Shown: piece after piece, positions 2,321 to 17,656 of the stretch | How the letters are laid out: the number at the start of each line of letters is the position of its first letter | How positions within the stretch are numbered: position 1 is the stretch's first letter | DNA from: a virus | IMG/VR virus record: IMGVR_UViG_3300028840_001929 | Span: 1-22,774 of that record | Strand: one strand, 5' to 3' | DNA: 22,774 nucleotides | Position numbers and translations under genes: made by a program | Notes under the pieces: generated by a model | What the model saw: the letters and a program-made list of their open reading frames with translations, nothing else | Databases searched by the model: none | What the model was told of the DNA's origin: nothing

Positions 2321-4828
2321 ATGGCGACGTCATTGTCAAAATTGACCGACGCGGAATTGGACCAATTTGTCGCGATGTTGGAATCCGGGGATTTGCCGGA
2401 CGACGCGGTCGATGAATTGGCCCAAAATATGGGCATGCCAGCGGCCGGTTCCTTGTCGTCCCTGACGCCCGAGGAATGGTCCGACAAAATGGCGGCCGAG
2501 GCGTCATTGGCCGAATTTATCCGCCAAGCATGGCATGTCGTCGAACCTGACGTCGAATTCATCGACGGGTGGCATATCGACGCGATCGCCGCCCATTTGG
2601 AAGCGACGTTGAATCGCAACGGGCCGATCAACAATTTGTTGATGAACATTCCCCCCGGGTGCATGAAATCGTTGGCAACGTCGGTATTTTTCCCGTCGTG
2701 GGCATGGATTCACAACCCGTCGTTGCGTTTTCTATGTACGTCGTACGAACAATCGTTGTCGACCCGGGATTCGATGCGATGCCGTCAAATCATCCAATCC
2801 GATTGGTACCGGCGACGTTGGGGCGACCGGTTCAAATTGACCGGGGACCAAAACGAAAAAACGAAATTCGAAAACGACAAACGCGGTTGGCGGATCGCAA
2901 CATCGGTCGGCGGTCGGGGGACGGGCGAACATCCGGATGTGGTCATTTGCGACGATCCGCACAAGGTGAAGGAAGCCGAATCGGAAACCGAACGGCAAGC
3001 CGCGATTCGATATTGGGACGGGACGATTTCGTCGCGCGGTAAAGTCCGGGGCGTCCGGCGTATTGTCATCATGCAACGATTGCACGAGGACGATTTGTCG
3101 GGGCATATTTTGGAAAACGACGCCGAAAAACGATGGGTCCACATTTGTTTGCCGATGCGGGCCGAACCCGACCGCATGGACCCGACCCCGTTAGGTTGGA
3201 CCGATCCCCGGGAACCGGGCGAATTGCTATGGGAAGGGGCGTTCGGCGAGGGGGCGGTTTCCGAATTGGAAACGGATTTGGGGACGTTACGGGCGGCCGG
3301 TCAATTGCAACAACGCCCGGCGCCCATGGGCGGCGAATTATTCCATTTGGATTGGTTCGAAATTGTCGACGCGTCCCCGGTCAACGCCCGGCGGGTCCGA
3401 TATTGGGACAAGGCGTGCGTATTGGGTTCGACCCTCGTTGACACGTCTCGGGGCCCGGTTAGGATAGACGAAATTATTGTCGGGGATTTTGTCCGGACCC
3501 GGTTCGGGTTTTATCCGGTCAAATGGGCTGGCATAACGAAATACGTCGATCGCTTGACGGTTGCCGAATTTCCGTCCGGCGTAGTTGCCGGAACCGGCGA
3601 TCATTTGTTTTGGACATACAATCGGGGTTGGGTCCAAATGGGCCAATTGACGGGAACGGATCAATGCCACGGCGGCCGACAAATTCCGATTCGATCATTT
3701 TTAATGGTCGGCGTTACGCGCGAAAACCCGGCGGTCGATATTATTATTGCAACGAATGGGACGCGATCGCAAAACGGTATCGGTACCGGTCATTGCATCG
3801 AGACATTTGGGAATCGGCAAACGGCCCCATTCCGGACGGATTCCACATCGACCATGTCGATGGCAATTGGGACAACAACGCGGTCGACAATTTGCAAGCG
3901 GTATCGTCGGCCGATCATCGCGCAAAACATGCGGACAAAATGCGGCAACCGGACGTTGTCGAAAAGGTACGGGTCGCGTCGATTGCCGCCGCCGCCCGCC
4001 GCCGCCGGATTGTTCGCCAATGCGAGGAATGCGGGGCCGATTATACGTCCGGTTGCCCAACCGCAAAATTTTGCGGTTCGCGATGTGCGGCAAATAGCCG
4101 AAATCGCAGGGTTCGCGAACAACGTTCCCGTTTACGACTTGACGGTTGACGGTCCGCCCGAATTTTTCGCAAATGGCGTATTGGTCCACAATTCGACCGA
4201 GGGCGGCGGGGCGTATTCCGCCGGGGTCCGGATGTCGTTGGCGACCGAAACGGGGGTATTTTACGTCGAACATGTCGAACGCCGCCAAGTATCGCCGCAT
4301 AAACGGAACCTAATGATAAAAGCAACCGCGACCATGGACGCGGACGAATTCGCAAATACGGTCGAACAATGGTTGGAAAGCGAGGGCGGTTCGGGCGGCA
4401 AGGAATCTGGCGAAATATCGGTCAAACAATTACGGGGTTTCCCGGTTTATTTGGACCGGCCGACCGGCGACAAAGTCGCCCGATCGTTACCGTTCGCCGC
4501 CCAATGCGAAGCCGGAAACGTCAAAATCGTCCGGGGGTCATGGAACCGGGATTATTTGGACGAATTGACATCGTTTCCGACCGGAAAATACAAGGATCAG
4601 GTCGACGGATCGTCCGGGGCGTTTAATAAATTGGCGGCGGGGGGCGTAACGATGCCGATCGACGAAATATTGGCGTCCGGCGATCCGGAACATTTGGCCG
4701 AAGAACGGACGCCGTTTTCCGACGACGAGGTCGACGAATTGCCGGAATTCATGCGGGACGTCGCCGGACCCGCGACAACGATTGAGGTGATTGAATGGCA
4801 AAAAAGAAACCAACGCCGGACGGATTGA
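2321..4828 (+). CDS. terL: Large terminase subunit (TerL), interrupted by an intein
   Basis: 835 residues as translated. Removing the intein (366-624) leaves 576, a normal TerL length. The ATPase has a Walker A-like PPGCMKS at 111-117 and a Walker B VVICDD ending at D211-D212, followed by PHK. The RNase H-like nuclease starts at RYWD, where D363 is the probable first metal ligand. After the intein come STEGGG, EQWLESEGGSGGK and the third nuclease block FPTGKYKDQVD. The protein packages DNA by ATP-driven translocation into the prohead through the portal and cuts the concatemer. The ribosome binding site is weak (GGAA about nine bases before ATG 2321), and the start of the antisense HNH gene lies only 16 bases upstream. 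The 3' end overlaps the ParB-methyltransferase gene by 34 bases. The interrupted frame stays open throughout, including across the nested HNH gene. Confidence 0.93.
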   Translation: MATSLSKLTDAELDQFVAMLESGDLPDDAVDELAQNMGMPAAGSLSSLTPEEWSDKMAAEASLAEFIRQAWHVVEPDVEFIDGWHIDAIAAHLEATLNRNGPINNLLMNIPPGCMKSLATSVFFPSWAWIHNPSLRFLCTSYEQSLSTRDSMRCRQIIQSDWYRRRWGDRFKLTGDQNEKTKFENDKRGWRIATSVGGRGTGEHPDVVICDDPHKVKEAESETERQAAIRYWDGTISSRGKVRGVRRIVIMQRLHEDDLSGHILENDAEKRWVHICLPMRAEPDRMDPTPLGWTDPREPGELLWEGAFGEGAVSELETDLGTLRAAGQLQQRPAPMGGELFHLDWFEIVDASPVNARRVRYWDKACVLGSTLVDTSRGPVRIDEIIVGDFVRTRFGFYPVKWAGITKYVDRLTVAEFPSGVVAGTGDHLFWTYNRGWVQMGQLTGTDQCHGGRQIPIRSFLMVGVTRENPAVDIIIATNGTRSQNGIGTGHCIETFGNRQTAPFRTDSTSTMSMAIGTTTRSTICKRYRRPIIAQNMRTKCGNRTLSKRYGSRRLPPPPAAAGLFANARNAGPIIRPVAQPQNFAVRDVRQIAEIAGFANNVPVYDLTVDGPPEFFANGVLVHNSTEGGGAYSAGVRMSLATETGVFYVEHVERRQVSPHKRNLMIKATATMDADEFANTVEQWLESEGGSGGKESGEISVKQLRGFPVYLDRPTGDKVARSLPFAAQCEAGNVKIVRGSWNRDYLDELTSFPTGKYKDQVDGSSGAFNKLAAGGVTMPIDEILASGDPEHLAEERTPFSDDEVDELPEFMRDVAGPATTIEVIEWQKRNQRRTD
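3664..4149 (+). CDS. HNH endonuclease nested out of frame inside the TerL intein
   Basis: 161 residues from ATG 3664 in a frame different from TerL, ending at TGA 4147-4149 within the DNA for intein block F. A GGAACGGA sequence precedes the ATG. The product opens with FNGRRYARKPGG, has the HNH core LHRDIWESANGPIPDGFHIDH then VDGNWDNNAVDNLQAVSS, and ends with a four-cysteine zinc finger (CEECGADYTSG, FCGSRC) and a basic tail. This is the layout of complete free-standing HNH endonucleases, so it is unlikely to be a random shadow. Its likely role is homing of the intein-bearing terL allele. Inteins usually carry the endonuclease as an in-frame domain; here it would need separate initiation or frameshifting. 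The last ~70 bases code for both the zinc-finger tail and the intein C-terminal region. Confidence 0.85.
   Translation: MPRRPTNSDSIIFNGRRYARKPGGRYYYCNEWDAIAKRYRYRSLHRDIWESANGPIPDGFHIDHVDGNWDNNAVDNLQAVSSADHRAKHADKMRQPDVVEKVRVASIAAAARRRRIVRQCEECGADYTSGCPTAKFCGSRCAANSRNRRVREQRSRLRLDG
4059..4078. repeat. Perfect 20-bp palindrome in the dual-coding part of the intein
   Basis: The sequence from 4059 to 4078 equals its own reverse complement and is centred on AAAATTTT, with GC-rich CCGC/GCGG arms. It lies where the HNH zinc finger (AKFCG) and the TerL frame overlap. It could be a protein-binding site or chance; no spacer exists for a normal hairpin loop. Confidence 0.7.
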
Positions 4829-8712: not shown

Positions 8713-9077
8713 CACGCCTGGGGGTTGCGCTTTCCGCGATTGGTGGTCGGACCCGCCGACGTCGTCGGTACCGATCGGCGATCGCGGAGGCGCGCCGTTG
8801 GCAAACCGCATACGAACGGGTCGTTGCGTTGAACGTACGGTTGGAAAATGAAATCCGCCGGGATCGCGACGAACGGGCCGAATCGGAACGGTCGCTGACG
8901 GTTGAAATCGACAAATTGCGGGCGGAAAACGATATATTGAACGCCCGGGACGCGATGTGGGTAGCCTGGGAAACCCGCGAACGCGAACGGATCAATGCGG
9001 AAACCGCCCGGTTGGCGGCCGCGAAAACCCGTTCGGTGGAAATGCCGTTAGAGGTAAACCGAGATGCCGAACTATAG
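8709..9077 (+). CDS. Coiled-coil protein upstream of the portal
   Basis: 122 residues starting in an ATGA overlap. Residues 14-22 are a cluster of arginines (RTRRRRRYR). From about residue 25 to 110 the sequence is almost entirely helical with heptad-like leucines and alternating charge (LNVRLENEIRRDRDER, IDKLRAENDILNARD, TRERERINAETARLAAAKTR), typical of a long coiled coil. It overlaps the portal fusion gene by 14 bases. A structural or scaffolding role is possible because of the coiled coil and position, but no family is recognised. Confidence 0.75.
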   Translation: MTRLGVALSAIGGRTRRRRRYRSAIAEARRWQTAYERVVALNVRLENEIRRDRDERAESERSLTVEIDKLRAENDILNARDAMWVAWETRERERINAETARLAAAKTRSVEMPLEVNRDAEL

Positions 9078-12000
9078 TCAAACGCGCGAACGTCAAACCG
9101 ATTTGGTCCGTTCGTTCGAAAATCGCGCGATGATTGCATTGGAAAAACGGGCGCCGAGCGGGGGCGGGCTTGGCGCCCAATTGGCCGGTCCGGCGGGCGG
9201 CTGGGGCGGTATATTCGACGTCGGGTCGGCCCGGGTCACCCGCAATAAAGAAGCGTACGCGTATTTTCGAAATTGGGTGTACATTTGCGTCGATGCGATC
9301 GCCTGTCGGTTGGCTGGTCAACCGATATGCGCCGGGGAAATTACGAACGCCGATCCGAACCCCGATCCGTCCGGCGAGGAACGAACCGTCCCGACCCGCA
9401 AAGCCGGGTTGCCACGGTACATCCGGGAAACGATCCCGAAATCGATTTTGAAATCGATCGGCACCCAAAATTTGGAAGTGTATGAATCGCACCCGGTTTT
9501 GGATTTGTTCGCCCGTCCGAATCCCGTCCAAAAGGGGTTCGAATTTTTTTATTTGTCGGCCGTCAATTTGCTATTGACCGGCGAGTCGTATTGGATCGGG
9601 TCCGTTGGCGATGCGGGCGAACCGGAAATTTGGGCGGTCCCGACCCATTGGTTGGAACCGGAACACGATGGCGGGTTGTTTACCGGATACAAAATCAAAT
9701 TGGGCAACATGGCGGTCGCCCAACCGATCCCGGTCGAAAGCGTCGCCCGAACCTATTTCGCCGATCCGATGGATTTGAAGTCGGCATTTTCGCCGGTCCG
9801 CGCGGCGTTGGGGGCGATCCGAACCGATGATTACATCCAATCATCGCAGGAACAAATGTTCGAACGCGGGATCAATCCGAATTTGATCGTTACCGTTGGC
9901 AAAGTCCGACGCGCCGACGGTACGTTATCCGATCGGCGGCCGGTCATGGGCGGGGCGGCCCGTCGGCAAATGATCCGGGCCATTCGCGAAATTTGGAACC
10001 AAACCGTATCGGCGGGCGACCCCGCGATTTTGGACGGGTTAATCGAATCGGTCCACAAATTGCATAATACCCCGCAGGAAATGGATTGGCCGAGTTCGTC
10101 CGAAATCGTCAAAAAACGAATCATGCAGACCTATAAGGTCAACCCGATCGTCGTCGGGGAAATTACCGCCGGGAACCGGGCCCAAGCGGTCGAGGCCGAG
10201 AAGAATTTTTGCGGAAACGCGGTCAATCCGATCGGGTCCGCGTTGTCCGAAACGGCAACCGATTTCGTCGGTCCATGGTTCGAGGAAAATAAACGTACCG
10301 CCGTTTGGGTCGAGGAATGTGTCCCGACCGATCCCGATTTGGATTTGAAACGTTGGACCGAGGCCCGTCGAAACGAGGACGTAACAACCGACGAATTCCG
10401 GGCCGAAATTTTGGGTATCCCGCCGCTCGAGGTGGAGGAAGAATCCGGCCCGTCGAAATTGTTGTCCGAACAAGGCGGTTTGTACGGCATTACGTCGTTG
10501 CTGGAAAAAATCGCGAACGGGTACGTTTCGCCGGAACAAGGGTCGGCAACGTTGCAAGCGACGTTGCGATTACCGGCGGAAACGGCCGACATGATTTGCG
10601 GGGTCGGCAACCCGGATTGGCAACCGTTTGATCCGACGCCGGACGAACCGGACGAACAACCGACGGACGACGAACCGGACGACGAAATCGAACCCGCCGG
10701 GGACGGGGAACCGCCGCCCGACGACATCGATACGGACGACGGGGACGACGCCGAAACGGCGTATCAGAACGCCATGAAATCGCCCGTATTCGCCGACGTC
10801 GCCAACATGCGTTTCGAATCGGGCCGCGAATTTATCGCCGCCATGGTCCAAAAGAACACGGCCAAAATCGAAAGGAGGTTGGGTCACGCGTTGACCCAAC
10901 ACTTTCGCCGGAGCATCCGAAATTGTACGGCGAAAATTGCCAAAATGAATCCGGACCCGGACCCCGACAACGCCGAGGTCCAAGCGGCCGCATTGGTCGC
11001 CGCAACGTTCGATTTCGATAAAGCGTTCGAGGATTTGGTCGAATCGACCGCCCCGCATTTGGCCGCCGGGTTCGCCGACGGCGTATTTTCCGAATTGTCG
11101 TTGTTGGCCGCCGTCAACGATGCCGAAAAACAATTCGGCGACAAAACGACCGCCGAGGACATCGTCGCCCAATTGGACATCGACGTCCCGCCGGATATCC
11201 CCATCGGGCAAGCCCCGGCATGGTTTCGGCAATCGGCCGAATCGTTTTTGTACGAAACGTTTGCACAACCGTATTGGACATCGGTTGACGAAACGACCGC
11301 CGACCAAATTTTGGATTTGTTGGCCGACGGGATCAACGACGGGCATTCGGTCCGGCGAATTGCCGGGGCGATCAATTCGGCGTTGGGGACATCGTATTCG
11401 ATGGCGCGGGCGACGAACGTTGTTCGGACCGAATTGACGGGGGCCATGAACGCGGGCCATGAAACGGGCATCGATCAAACCGCGTCCGAAACCGGATTGC
11501 CGATCGGCAAGGAATGGGTTTCGGTCATGGGCAATACGACCCGGGCAACGCACGCGGCAATGGACGGACAACAAACGGTCACGCCCGACGGGTTGTTCGA
11601 ATTGGCGGGCGTCAATATTCCGTACCCGGGGCACGTTCGGTTGCCCGCCGGGGAACGTTGCAATTGCCAATGCACAATAATTTCGTCGTTGGTCATGGAC
11701 GCCATGAACGAAGCCATCGAAACCGGCGAACCGGAATTGGCGCATGCGACGTTGGACAAAATGGAAGCCAAGGATATCATCGCAACGCACCCGGGGTTGG
11801 ACCGAAAACAAAAGGCCATGATGGAGGTAAAAACCAAAATGGCCGACCGCCAACACCGATATCAAAAACGGGTCAACGCGTTACGGTCGGAATACGCAAC
11901 GGTCGGGAATGACATATTTTTGTTGACCGAGGAAGCGGACGCGTTATCGGCCGAAATTGACGCTATCGTTGCGGAAGAATTGTCAGGCAATGAAATAAGC

Positions 12001-12927
12001 GACGAAACCCGGCAACGTCAAATGGAATTGAACCAAAAAATTGCCGCGTTGGATCGGCAAATCGGCGAATTACATGATTCGCGGGCGGCGGTCCGTCGTA
12101 AAATTACGCGGTTGGAAGCCCGGCGCGGCAAATTGGCCGACAAACAACGCGAAATGGCGATCCGGGCGTTGGGGGTCAAAACGTCCGAACGGATCGAAAT
12201 TAAACCCGAACAAGTCAGAGACAAATCGTTATCCAATTGGAAAAAACGCGGCAAAAAACGATCGATGGGTCGATTTGGCAAAGACCAAAAATCCCGGATC
12301 GGCAAAGCGAAGGATTTTTTGAGCCGGATGTTGACCCGCCGCAAAGATTTTAATTTGGAAACGTTGCAAAAAATCGAGCATGTCCGGGTCCATGCGGCGT
12401 CGAAACATGCCCGGGCATGGTCGGCCGTCGAAAAACATTATCCGAACGACCCCCGGAAACGCGGCATTAGTTGCGCGACGAACGCCGAAATTTCGACGTA
12501 CGTTCACGAAATGGGGCACCAATTGGAAAACAGCGTCCCGGGGTTGGAAAAACGAGCGAACGAATTCAAACGGTACCGCATCCAAAAATCGGGCCGGTCC
12601 AATCGAAAAATGGTGGAAGTTTTCCCCGGATACGGTTATACGCAAGACGAAATCGGCAACGACGACGATTTCCATGCGGCGTTCGATCGGGATTGGAAAC
12701 CGGGCAAAACGTACCCGCCCCATGCCGAATATGGGTCGAATTCGTCGTATACGGAACGTAGCGCCGCGAATTCGGCGTTTTATACCGGCAAAAATTATAC
12801 GCACGGGTCGACCGAGGTATTGTCCATGGGGTTCGAATTGTTGTACGAAGACCCGGTCGGATTTGCGGAACGCGACCCGGAATTTTTCAAGTTCATCGTG
12901 GGGGTTCTCGATGGCACCATCCGGTAA
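9064..12927 (+). CDS. Portal-MuF-metallopeptidase fusion protein
   Basis: 1287 residues. About 30-470 match an HK97-type portal: FRNWVYICVDAIACRLAG, HPVLDLFARPNP, LTGESYWIG, and the crown/clip region to LGIPPLE. An Asp/Glu/Pro-rich linker (520-563) leads to a MuF-like minor head domain (about 740-880) with HAAMDG at 830-835, PYPGHVRLPAGERCNC and CNCQC at 866-870. A long coiled coil follows (about 910-1050, RQMELNQKIAALDRQI, ARRGKLADKQREM), then a basic patch. The C-terminal domain carries HEMGH at 1148-1152 and a candidate third zinc ligand Glu1251 in STEVLSMG, a zincin signature. Portal and MuF are normally separate neighbouring genes. MuF proteins of other phages can carry C-terminal toxin domains, so a peptidase delivered with the DNA is plausible; head maturation is an alternative. 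The ribosome binding site is AGAGGT before ATG 9064. Confidence 0.88.
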   Translation: MPNYSQTRERQTDLVRSFENRAMIALEKRAPSGGGLGAQLAGPAGGWGGIFDVGSARVTRNKEAYAYFRNWVYICVDAIACRLAGQPICAGEITNADPNPDPSGEERTVPTRKAGLPRYIRETIPKSILKSIGTQNLEVYESHPVLDLFARPNPVQKGFEFFYLSAVNLLLTGESYWIGSVGDAGEPEIWAVPTHWLEPEHDGGLFTGYKIKLGNMAVAQPIPVESVARTYFADPMDLKSAFSPVRAALGAIRTDDYIQSSQEQMFERGINPNLIVTVGKVRRADGTLSDRRPVMGGAARRQMIRAIREIWNQTVSAGDPAILDGLIESVHKLHNTPQEMDWPSSSEIVKKRIMQTYKVNPIVVGEITAGNRAQAVEAEKNFCGNAVNPIGSALSETATDFVGPWFEENKRTAVWVEECVPTDPDLDLKRWTEARRNEDVTTDEFRAEILGIPPLEVEEESGPSKLLSEQGGLYGITSLLEKIANGYVSPEQGSATLQATLRLPAETADMICGVGNPDWQPFDPTPDEPDEQPTDDEPDDEIEPAGDGEPPPDDIDTDDGDDAETAYQNAMKSPVFADVANMRFESGREFIAAMVQKNTAKIERRLGHALTQHFRRSIRNCTAKIAKMNPDPDPDNAEVQAAALVAATFDFDKAFEDLVESTAPHLAAGFADGVFSELSLLAAVNDAEKQFGDKTTAEDIVAQLDIDVPPDIPIGQAPAWFRQSAESFLYETFAQPYWTSVDETTADQILDLLADGINDGHSVRRIAGAINSALGTSYSMARATNVVRTELTGAMNAGHETGIDQTASETGLPIGKEWVSVMGNTTRATHAAMDGQQTVTPDGLFELAGVNIPYPGHVRLPAGERCNCQCTIISSLVMDAMNEAIETGEPELAHATLDKMEAKDIIATHPGLDRKQKAMMEVKTKMADRQHRYQKRVNALRSEYATVGNDIFLLTEEADALSAEIDAIVAEELSGNEISDETRQRQMELNQKIAALDRQIGELHDSRAAVRRKITRLEARRGKLADKQREMAIRALGVKTSERIEIKPEQVRDKSLSNWKKRGKKRSMGRFGKDQKSRIGKAKDFLSRMLTRRKDFNLETLQKIEHVRVHAASKHARAWSAVEKHYPNDPRKRGISCATNAEISTYVHEMGHQLENSVPGLEKRANEFKRYRIQKSGRSNRKMVEVFPGYGYTQDEIGNDDDFHAAFDRDWKPGKTYPPHAEYGSNSSYTERSAANSAFYTGKNYTHGSTEVLSMGFELLYEDPVGFAERDPEFFKFIVGVLDGTIR

Positions 12928-16480: not shown

Positions 16481-16507
16481 GTGAACCACATCCCGGGGGA
16501 ATTGGTT

Positions 16508-17656
16508 GTGTCGCAAGAAGTAACATTTCGGCTTGAACCCGCCGGTTCGTACGATTCGCGCCGCGTTACCGTTTGGGACGTCGGGGTTTTGCCCCGGGAT
16601 TTGGTAACCGATCAAACGTTGGCGGGTAGCGCGACGTCGTTCACGATTGAATTGTACGACAACGGATTATTCGAAATCCATTTGACGGATACGTACAACG
16701 GGTACGATTCGCCGACGGCGGTTTTGAAATTCAATACGTCGTTGCCGACCCCGGGGTTGCCGCAACGGCCGTCGTTACCGATTCCGAACATAACGCAATC
16801 GATCGTTGTTCCGGTCGAGGAATCGTCCAGTTCGTCCAGTTCGTCCGCAACGTCGACCCGGTCGTGGACGTCCATGTCGACATCGTCGCAATCGACGTCG
16901 TCGACGTCCGGATCGTTGACCAGCGCGTCGACATCGTCCGGTTCGACATCGTCCAGTTCGAATTCCAGTTCGTCGTCAAGCCAAACCGATACGTCGTCCG
17001 TGTCGTCCGTAACAAGCCAATCGACCGCGACGTCCGCAACGTCGACCCGCAGTTGGACGTCCGCGTCGACATCGTCGTCGCTGACCTATTCGTCGTCGTC
17101 GACATCCGTATCGTCGCAATCGACCAATTCGTCGTCGCCATCGTCGCAAACCGACGTAACGTCGTCGACGTCGTCGTTAACCAATTCGTCGTCGTCGTCG
17201 TCCGTAACATCCGGTTCGACGTCAACATCGCAAACGGCGTCGTTGTCAATATCGTCCAAATCGTCACATACGTCGTCGTCGTATTCGACATCGTCGTCGA
17301 CATCGCAATCCGCGTCGTCGATATCGTCGTCGCTTACTTCCACGCGTTCGTGGACCTCCGCGTCGACGTCGTCGCAATCCGAATTGACGTCCGCAACATC
17401 GACGCGTTCGTGGACGTCCGCGTCGACCAGTTCGCAATCGACCAGTTCGCAATCCGAATCGTCGTTGTCGACCGGTTCGACATCGTCGCAATCGTTGTCG
17501 TCATGGTCAACGACGTCCGGTTCAACGCAATCCGCGTCGACGTTGTCCGCGTCCGAAGGCGGCGAATCGACATCGTCATTGTCGACGTCGTCCGTAACGT
17601 CGCAATCGTCGTCGTCAACATCGCAATCGTCGGCATCGTCCAGCACGCGGCCGTAA
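16508..17656 (+). CDS. Serine/threonine-rich repeat protein
   Basis: 382 residues from GTG 16508, chosen because GGGGGA (16495-16500) lies seven bases upstream; the in-frame GTG at 16481 touches the terminator T tract and has no such signal. Residues 1-100 form a normal, probably beta-rich domain (VTFRLEPAG, VTVWDVGVLPRD, SFTIELYDNGLFEIHLTDTY), perhaps an immunoglobulin-like or virion-attachment fold. From about residue 103 to the end almost every residue is Ser or Thr, with recurring RSWTSxSTSS units. The tail should be extended and could be glycosylated, like stalks of adhesins or decorated fibres. There is no signal peptide or membrane anchor, so it is probably a virion surface or fibre-like protein. 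Its start resembles the partial gene at the end of the window. Confidence 0.75.
   Translation: MSQEVTFRLEPAGSYDSRRVTVWDVGVLPRDLVTDQTLAGSATSFTIELYDNGLFEIHLTDTYNGYDSPTAVLKFNTSLPTPGLPQRPSLPIPNITQSIVVPVEESSSSSSSSATSTRSWTSMSTSSQSTSSTSGSLTSASTSSGSTSSSSNSSSSSSQTDTSSVSSVTSQSTATSATSTRSWTSASTSSSLTYSSSSTSVSSQSTNSSSPSSQTDVTSSTSSLTNSSSSSSVTSGSTSTSQTASLSISSKSSHTSSSYSTSSSTSQSASSISSSLTSTRSWTSASTSSQSELTSATSTRSWTSASTSSQSTSSQSESSLSTGSTSSQSLSSWSTTSGSTQSASTLSASEGGESTSSLSTSSVTSQSSSSTSQSSASSSTRP
16826..17650 (+). repeat. TCG-rich low-complexity tract with recurring RSWTS units
   Basis: About 820 bases built from TCG, TCC, ACG, ACA and AGT codons. Units coding for R-S-W-T-S occur near 16856, 17047, 17342 and 17411, each followed by a similar S-T-S-S stretch. 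The units are imperfect and in frame, as expected of protein-level repeats subject to recombination. The long open frames seen here on the other strands are by-products of the repeat. Confidence 0.85.

Follow-up and report, generated by a model that had tools for sequence, protein, structure and literature searches.

Split inteins accompanied by a free-standing homing endonuclease, the fractured genes, were reportedly described by Dassa et al. in 2009. The gp41-1 intein belongs to this kind, as does that of MIJ3 polB, whose two halves are separated by an HNH gene (PMC6892783), and all intein-borne endonucleases have been reported at one conserved insertion site (PMC6801210). The ShiLan domain is an insertion in a phage methylase with an out-of-frame HNH, which its authors could not class as an intein or an intron (Arsenault, Gosselin and Gogarten 2025, PMC11855218). 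In collaborative homing with introns, capture of a pre-adapted endonuclease by the splicing element has been proposed (PMC2988022, PMC10448857), and some HNH proteins encoded next to TerL in phages take part in DNA packaging (PMC12724721).

The window, by which we mean the whole 22,774-base virus record analysed here, carries a packaging and head module of standard type in which the gene for the large terminase (terL) is interrupted (Table 1). We consider it highly probable that the interruption is a composite mobile element, consisting of a class-1 mini-intein in TerL and a complete, separately translated HNH homing gene that sits at the canonical Hint insertion site, in the -1 frame, and arrived there by capture.

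Table 1. Features of the interrupted terL gene, with positions in the window.
Feature	Position	Strand	Remarks
terL, large terminase precursor, 835 aa	2321..4828	+	single open frame (frame 2), intein included
N-extein	2321..3415	+	last residues ...RYWDKA (nuclease motif I); TerL homology ends at this point
IntN: block A (C1), block B (TGDH), folded Hint half	3416..3664	+	IntN HMM 67 bits
Nested HNH endonuclease gene, 161 aa, -1 frame relative to terL (frame 1)	3664..4149	+	own ATG (3664) and TGA (ending 4149); HNH_3 9.5e-15
Intein-frame loop, residues 96-206 (111 residues)	3701..4033	+	no domain or predicted structure (AF2)
HNH_3 (PF13392) catalytic domain, residues 44-86 of the nested protein	3793..3921	+	profile match
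C4 zinc ribbon of the nested HNH (C120, C123, C137, C141)	4021..4086	+	invariant in 17 sequences
IntC: blocks F and G, VPVYDLTVDGPPEFFANGVLVHN	4127..4192	+	IntC HMM 43.7 bits; TIGR01443
C-extein, starting STEGGG (Ser +1), RNase H-like nuclease domain	4193..4828	+	Terminase_6C 1.1e-6

TerL homology is present at both ends of the open frame, where the exteins match phrog_38 (7.5e-68) and phrog_979 (1.3e-34), one each, and is broken from 3416, the codon of C1, to 4192, the end of the last Asn codon, with Ser at +1 and VYDLTVDGPPEFFANGVLVHN as block F/G. The insertion site is nuclease motif I of TerL (YWDKA / C...N / STEGGG). The sequence features of a class-1 intein are present, namely C1, T60 and H63 of block B, a ...VHN end and Ser +1, and C1, T60, H63 and N259 are invariant in an alignment of 21 sequences. 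TIGR01443 (intein C-terminus) matches the window TerL above its curated cutoff (E about 2.7e-6), the Pfam profiles Intein_splicing (4.8e-5) and Hint_2 (5e-4) both score below their gathering thresholds, and a profile built from 21 inteins of this type hits gp41-1, an intein of solved structure, at 1.5e-19. AlphaFold models residues 1-95 and 207-259 with confidence as a Hint fold (pLDDT 86-97 for residues 1-80), for which Foldseek returns gp41-1 as the nearest solved structure (E 2.2e-6, TM 0.83 by target length), and residues 96-206, which overlap the HNH gene, are modeled at pLDDT 33-48 without secondary structure. On the strength of its catalytic residues and fold, the insert is predicted to be a splicing-competent class-1 mini-intein. 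A sequence-only reading of this DNA had placed splicing blocks A, B, F and G in the TerL frame, described that frame as open across the intein, and remarked on a long intein stretch with no recognisable domain; all three observations are borne out by the motifs, the profile matches, the uninterrupted ORF and the structural model, in which the stretch in question is unstructured.

The same reading had described a full HNH-zinc finger gene out of frame within the intein, which it had located correctly. HMM searches of both frames separate the two proteins, with intein profiles matching the terL frame and HNH_3 matching the -1 frame, which also matches phrog_15471 (2e-20). Residues H45, H64, D66, N71, N72, N76 and H85 of the nested protein are invariant in 17 sequences, and its AlphaFold model is confident (mean pLDDT 87.6), with I-HmuI as the nearest solved structure (Foldseek 8.5e-4). 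The nested ORF is not a product of chance, and its catalytic residues and predicted fold point to an HNH_3 (I-HmuI-like) homing endonuclease. Its TGA stop is formed at the GTT/GAC (V-D) junction within intein block F. Codon usage separates the two frames weakly (0.327 for the HNH frame and 0.285 for the intein frame).

Other parts of the window deserve mention in their own right. A second, apparently free-standing HNH_3 endonuclease (5.5e-9) is encoded on the minus strand at 1792-2664, just upstream of and overlapping the terL start, giving the window TerL one flanking HNH gene and another inside. Farther downstream, a 1287-aa ORF (9064-12927) is a fusion of portal and Mu F-like head protein with a C-terminal extension bearing a zincin-like HEMGH motif, and a long, low-complexity, Ser/Thr-rich ORF lies at 16481-17656, with long open stretches in its other frames and on the reverse strand as well.

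A tblastn search of phage genomes with the HNH located it inside the annotated TerL of Tetrasphaera phage TJE1, Acinetobacter phage Highwayman and Rhodobacteraceae phage LS06-2018-MD07, and all three share the window's arrangement, with the HNH one frame behind TerL. With an alignment of nested HNHs as the query, IMG/VR yielded at least 562 relatives, of which 80 were kept, and GTDB genomes yielded 26. In this census, whose seed of nested HNHs makes the sample lean to this lineage and places other HNH-intein lineages outside the survey, an HNH is accompanied by both intein halves at 91 loci. Of these, 70 (62 distinct) keep a contiguous host frame and place the HNH at -1, and 21 are fractured, the host frame being broken by stops in 10 and the halves lying in different frames in 11. 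The fractured loci have the layout of split intein halves with an HNH gene between them. Nearly all of the related inteins occupy the C-terminal nuclease motif of TerL (DNH / C...N / C-IDAxRY), and the window intein lies at another site. The offset noticed from sequence alone is therefore conserved in homologous TerL inteins, at -1 in 70 of 70 contiguous loci, and an HNH in frame with its intein, which would have counted against it, occurs in none of the 91. Two points lay beyond that earlier account: that the family is widespread, and that an out-of-frame HNH insert outside inteins (ShiLan) had already been published.

Locus L007 (3941-7162) is apparently a further, independent out-of-frame case. 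Its TerL intein lies at a third site (PDYIV / C...N / CDDPHN) and holds a different zinc-finger/HNH-like ORF nested at +1, with no stops seen versus 9.5 expected (fewer than 1 in 5000 permutations); a search for relatives of this HNH returned only L007 itself. In Vibrio phage 1.238 (L016, 658-4389), TerL contains an in-frame intein close to the Walker A motif and also a second, split intein, both halves of which are overlapped by an HNH. In Lactobacillus phage CL2 (L022, 506-2684), the annotated TerL ends in IntN, and a separate HNH gene and IntC follow downstream, making this an unannotated split intein.

Two constraints act on the same DNA. The number of intein-frame stops expected per locus is 2.3 by synonymous permutation of HNH codons or 5.1 by base-composition resampling, and none is observed in the 62 distinct contiguous loci; since a locus counts as 'contiguous' only if it has no stops, what is telling is that the stop counts are bimodal. 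Most fractured loci carry about the expected number (14 vs. 12.4 in L016, 12 vs. 12.0 in L118), and loci with one to three intein-frame stops are rare. The other offset would give about 20 stops, which explains why -1 is the sole offset among contiguous members. For the window alone, the probability of no intein-frame stop is 0.15 under codon permutation and 0.027 under codon resampling; the open TerL frame is weakly informative there and very strong evidence across the family. The comparison of rates in both frames, proposed in the sequence-only reading, was made over 165 pairs of relatives, which are not independent of one another. Substitutions in the HNH frame number 6611, 5572 and 11013 at codon positions 1, 2 and 3, the count at third positions being about double that at either of the other two, and 33% of amino acids differ when the DNA is read in the HNH frame vs. 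52% when it is read in the intein frame. Purifying selection acts on the HNH frame, and stop avoidance on the intein frame.

Evidence of mobility comes from relatives of the window element. The TerL exteins of Highwayman total 1302 bases, the length of the intein-less TerL of Acinetobacter phage Acba_21, and a 981-bp insert is present only in Highwayman TerL, with no match in any other of 50,697 phage records. The exteins of the two phages show 15 differences, every one of which falls between -163 and +12 relative to the insertion point; at residue +1, Acba_21 has Leu and Highwayman has Cys, as splicing requires. Judged from these sequences, the pattern is that expected of recent homing with co-conversion. 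BP10, tried as the empty-site partner of Highwayman, was rejected because the TerLs are too different, and Acba_21 was used instead. In 45 (overlapping) pairs, the HNHs are at least 65% identical and the TerLs 24-45% identical, a discordance that we count as a sign of horizontal spread, and within the L090 group divergence is 1-5% for the intein DNA and about 10% for the upstream extein. No empty-site pair was found for the window's own insertion site, and a DNA pattern for its junction (HN-STEGG) gave four matches, all chance, and no relative at that site. Homing at the window's site is thus suggested by analogy.

The possible origin of the element is indicated by free-standing members of the same HNH family, which adjoin TerL, many between terL and the portal gene, with the TerL site uninterrupted. 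In the HNH tree, free-standing, nested and split forms are mixed, and well-supported branches force at least three changes; few deep branches are well supported, so any direction or number of captures read from the tree is tentative. Because TerL-adjacent free-standing relatives occur and mix with nested forms, we favor a scenario in which a mini-intein captured a free-standing HNH that already targeted TerL, and the earlier idea that endonucleases invade mini-inteins gains support to that extent. Given the HNHs involved in packaging (PMC12724721), the free-standing relatives need not all be homing enzymes. At the other end of the series, the TerL of Brochothrix phage BL3 (L017, 1936-2607) has a split intein with only the zinc-finger end of an apparently decayed HNH left, and the split intein of Vibrio phage 1.238 has an intact HNH; both are plausible later stages after loss of the host frame.

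The alternative that fares best holds that the intein splices while its passenger has decayed, the nuclease being no longer made or active in this phage. Such decay could account for the long window HNH branch (2.71 vs. a median of 0.52), for the weak Shine-Dalgarno-like sequence before its start, and for the lack of close relatives of the element in IMG/VR when the window HNH served as the lone query, its relatives having been reached only with the alignment of nested HNHs. However, all invariant HNH and zinc residues are kept, the HNH frame has no stops, and the predicted fold is confident, which makes decay unlikely.

For expression of the nested gene, we favor independent translation from an internal start. 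Every HNH examined but two (L017, decayed, and L107) has an ATG, GTG or TTG of its own close to the end of IntN; Shine-Dalgarno-like sites precede many of these starts, with A-rich leaders instead in a Bacteroidota-type group, and in many loci an HNH-frame stop lies shortly (tens of bases) upstream. The HNH stop falls in or beside block F in 54 of 62 loci, commonly as a TGA from TAT/GAT (Tyr-Asp) or GTT/GA (Val-Asp/Glu). Programmed -1 ribosomal frameshifting within the intein would instead yield a TerL-IntN-HNH fusion, with no independent translation of the HNH. The offset in contiguous loci is always -1, the frame that such shifting reaches, and the HNH frame of the window is open upstream of its ATG from 3463. 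Yet a slippery X_XXY_YYZ heptamer occurs, in the possible stretch before the overlap, in just 8 of 70 family loci and nowhere in that stretch of the window, the HNH is a separate ORF in fractured relatives, and the -1 offset is explained by stop avoidance. Together with the upstream stops and the many Shine-Dalgarno-like sites, this renders frameshifting improbable. Independent translation is favored by the HNH's own start and stop, the Shine-Dalgarno-like sites, the upstream stops and the rarity of heptamers, and the earlier suggestion that nuclease expression is separate from splicing is likewise supported by these codons and by the fractured relatives.

It is more doubtful still that the insert is no intein at all and instead an out-of-frame HNH insertion that stays unspliced and is tolerated as a loop, for which ShiLan is a precedent without splicing motifs (PMC11855218): here the splicing blocks and catalytic residues are complete and do not vary, the predicted fold is Hint, and an insert in the TerL nuclease active site should be lethal if unspliced. 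Finally, sequencing or assembly indels that shifted an ordinary in-frame HNH intein, as a single metagenomic contig alone could hold, are refuted by the census, in that the 69 other contiguous loci with the same offset, including the annotated genomes of TJE1, Highwayman and LS06 and dozens of contigs, make such error unnecessary and two compensating indels would be needed per locus, leaving this explanation a negligible chance.

The composite of mini-intein and overprinted nuclease gene would then operate as follows: (i) The ribosome translating TerL would read the HNH DNA as a long unstructured loop. (ii) The intein, to judge by its catalytic residues and fold, would splice this loop out and restore TerL. 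(iii) The HNH would be made separately from its internal start, as its own start and stop and the Shine-Dalgarno-like sites of many relatives suggest. (iv) The HNH would cut intein-less TerL alleles, and repair would copy intein and HNH jointly, a process with a signature in Highwayman and presumed for the window. (v) The element most likely arose when a mini-intein captured a free-standing HNH already targeting TerL. (vi) The -1 frame would be kept as the stop-poor frame, with conserved block F codons often supplying the HNH stop. (vii) Where intein-frame stops are acquired, the element would turn into a split intein whose halves flank a free HNH gene, as the fractured relatives suggest.

We give even weight to a broader proposal, that phages harbor a wide class of actively homing inteins in which the endonuclease stays overprinted at -1, the only frame easily kept stop-free, with conserved block F codons supplying the stop; that its members are intermediates between a free-standing endonuclease plus mini-intein and split inteins; and that split inteins can arise naturally when such inteins lose their open host frame. 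The family bears on the open questions of how homing endonucleases and splicing elements join and of how split inteins arise, since one gene offers a single HNH family in its free-standing, nested and fractured states, plus an empty-site pair, for direct comparison. It also offers a well-supported case of same-strand overprinting in phages, with purifying selection in one frame and stop avoidance in the other, and active nucleases overlooked by gene callers may lie within TerL inteins that are annotated as mini-inteins.

Our literature search for inteins with out-of-frame endonucleases, which covered published papers, found none describing such a layout. A 2025 preprint from the ShiLan group (Gosselin et al., bioRxiv 2025.01.02.630785) concerns, by its title, actinobacteriophage inteins with 'non-canonical architecture'; the title suggests unusual layouts, and overlap is possible. 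Measured against the nearest published kinds, ShiLan-type out-of-frame HNH inserts and fractured inteins are already known, and the out-of-frame HNH within a contiguous intein appears to be new. Canonical large inteins share the Hint fold and an endonuclease at the conserved insertion site, here between IntN and IntC, but in our case the endonuclease is out of frame, has its own start and stop, and lies outside the intein polypeptide. The nested gene resembles free-standing phage HNHs in being of HNH_3 type, I-HmuI-like and related to genes that adjoin TerL (PMC2988022, PMC10448857); unlike in collaborative homing with introns, the splicing element is an intein, and capture would have occurred by overprinting within its coding sequence. 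In fractured genes and split inteins, likewise, a separate endonuclease gene lies between the two halves of a mini-intein, a layout present in 21 relatives, and gp41-1 is the closest solved structure to the window's splicing domain; the window and 69 other loci differ in keeping the host frame unbroken, with one polypeptide, predicted cis-splicing and an overlapping endonuclease. ShiLan comes close in having a complete zinc-finger HNH in another frame, an open host frame and a disjunct distribution suggesting homing (PMC11855218), but its authors found no intein or intron splicing motifs in it, whereas the present family, found mostly in TerL, has a full splicing domain with catalytic residues and adds an empty-site/co-conversion pair and a quantified stop-avoidance signal.
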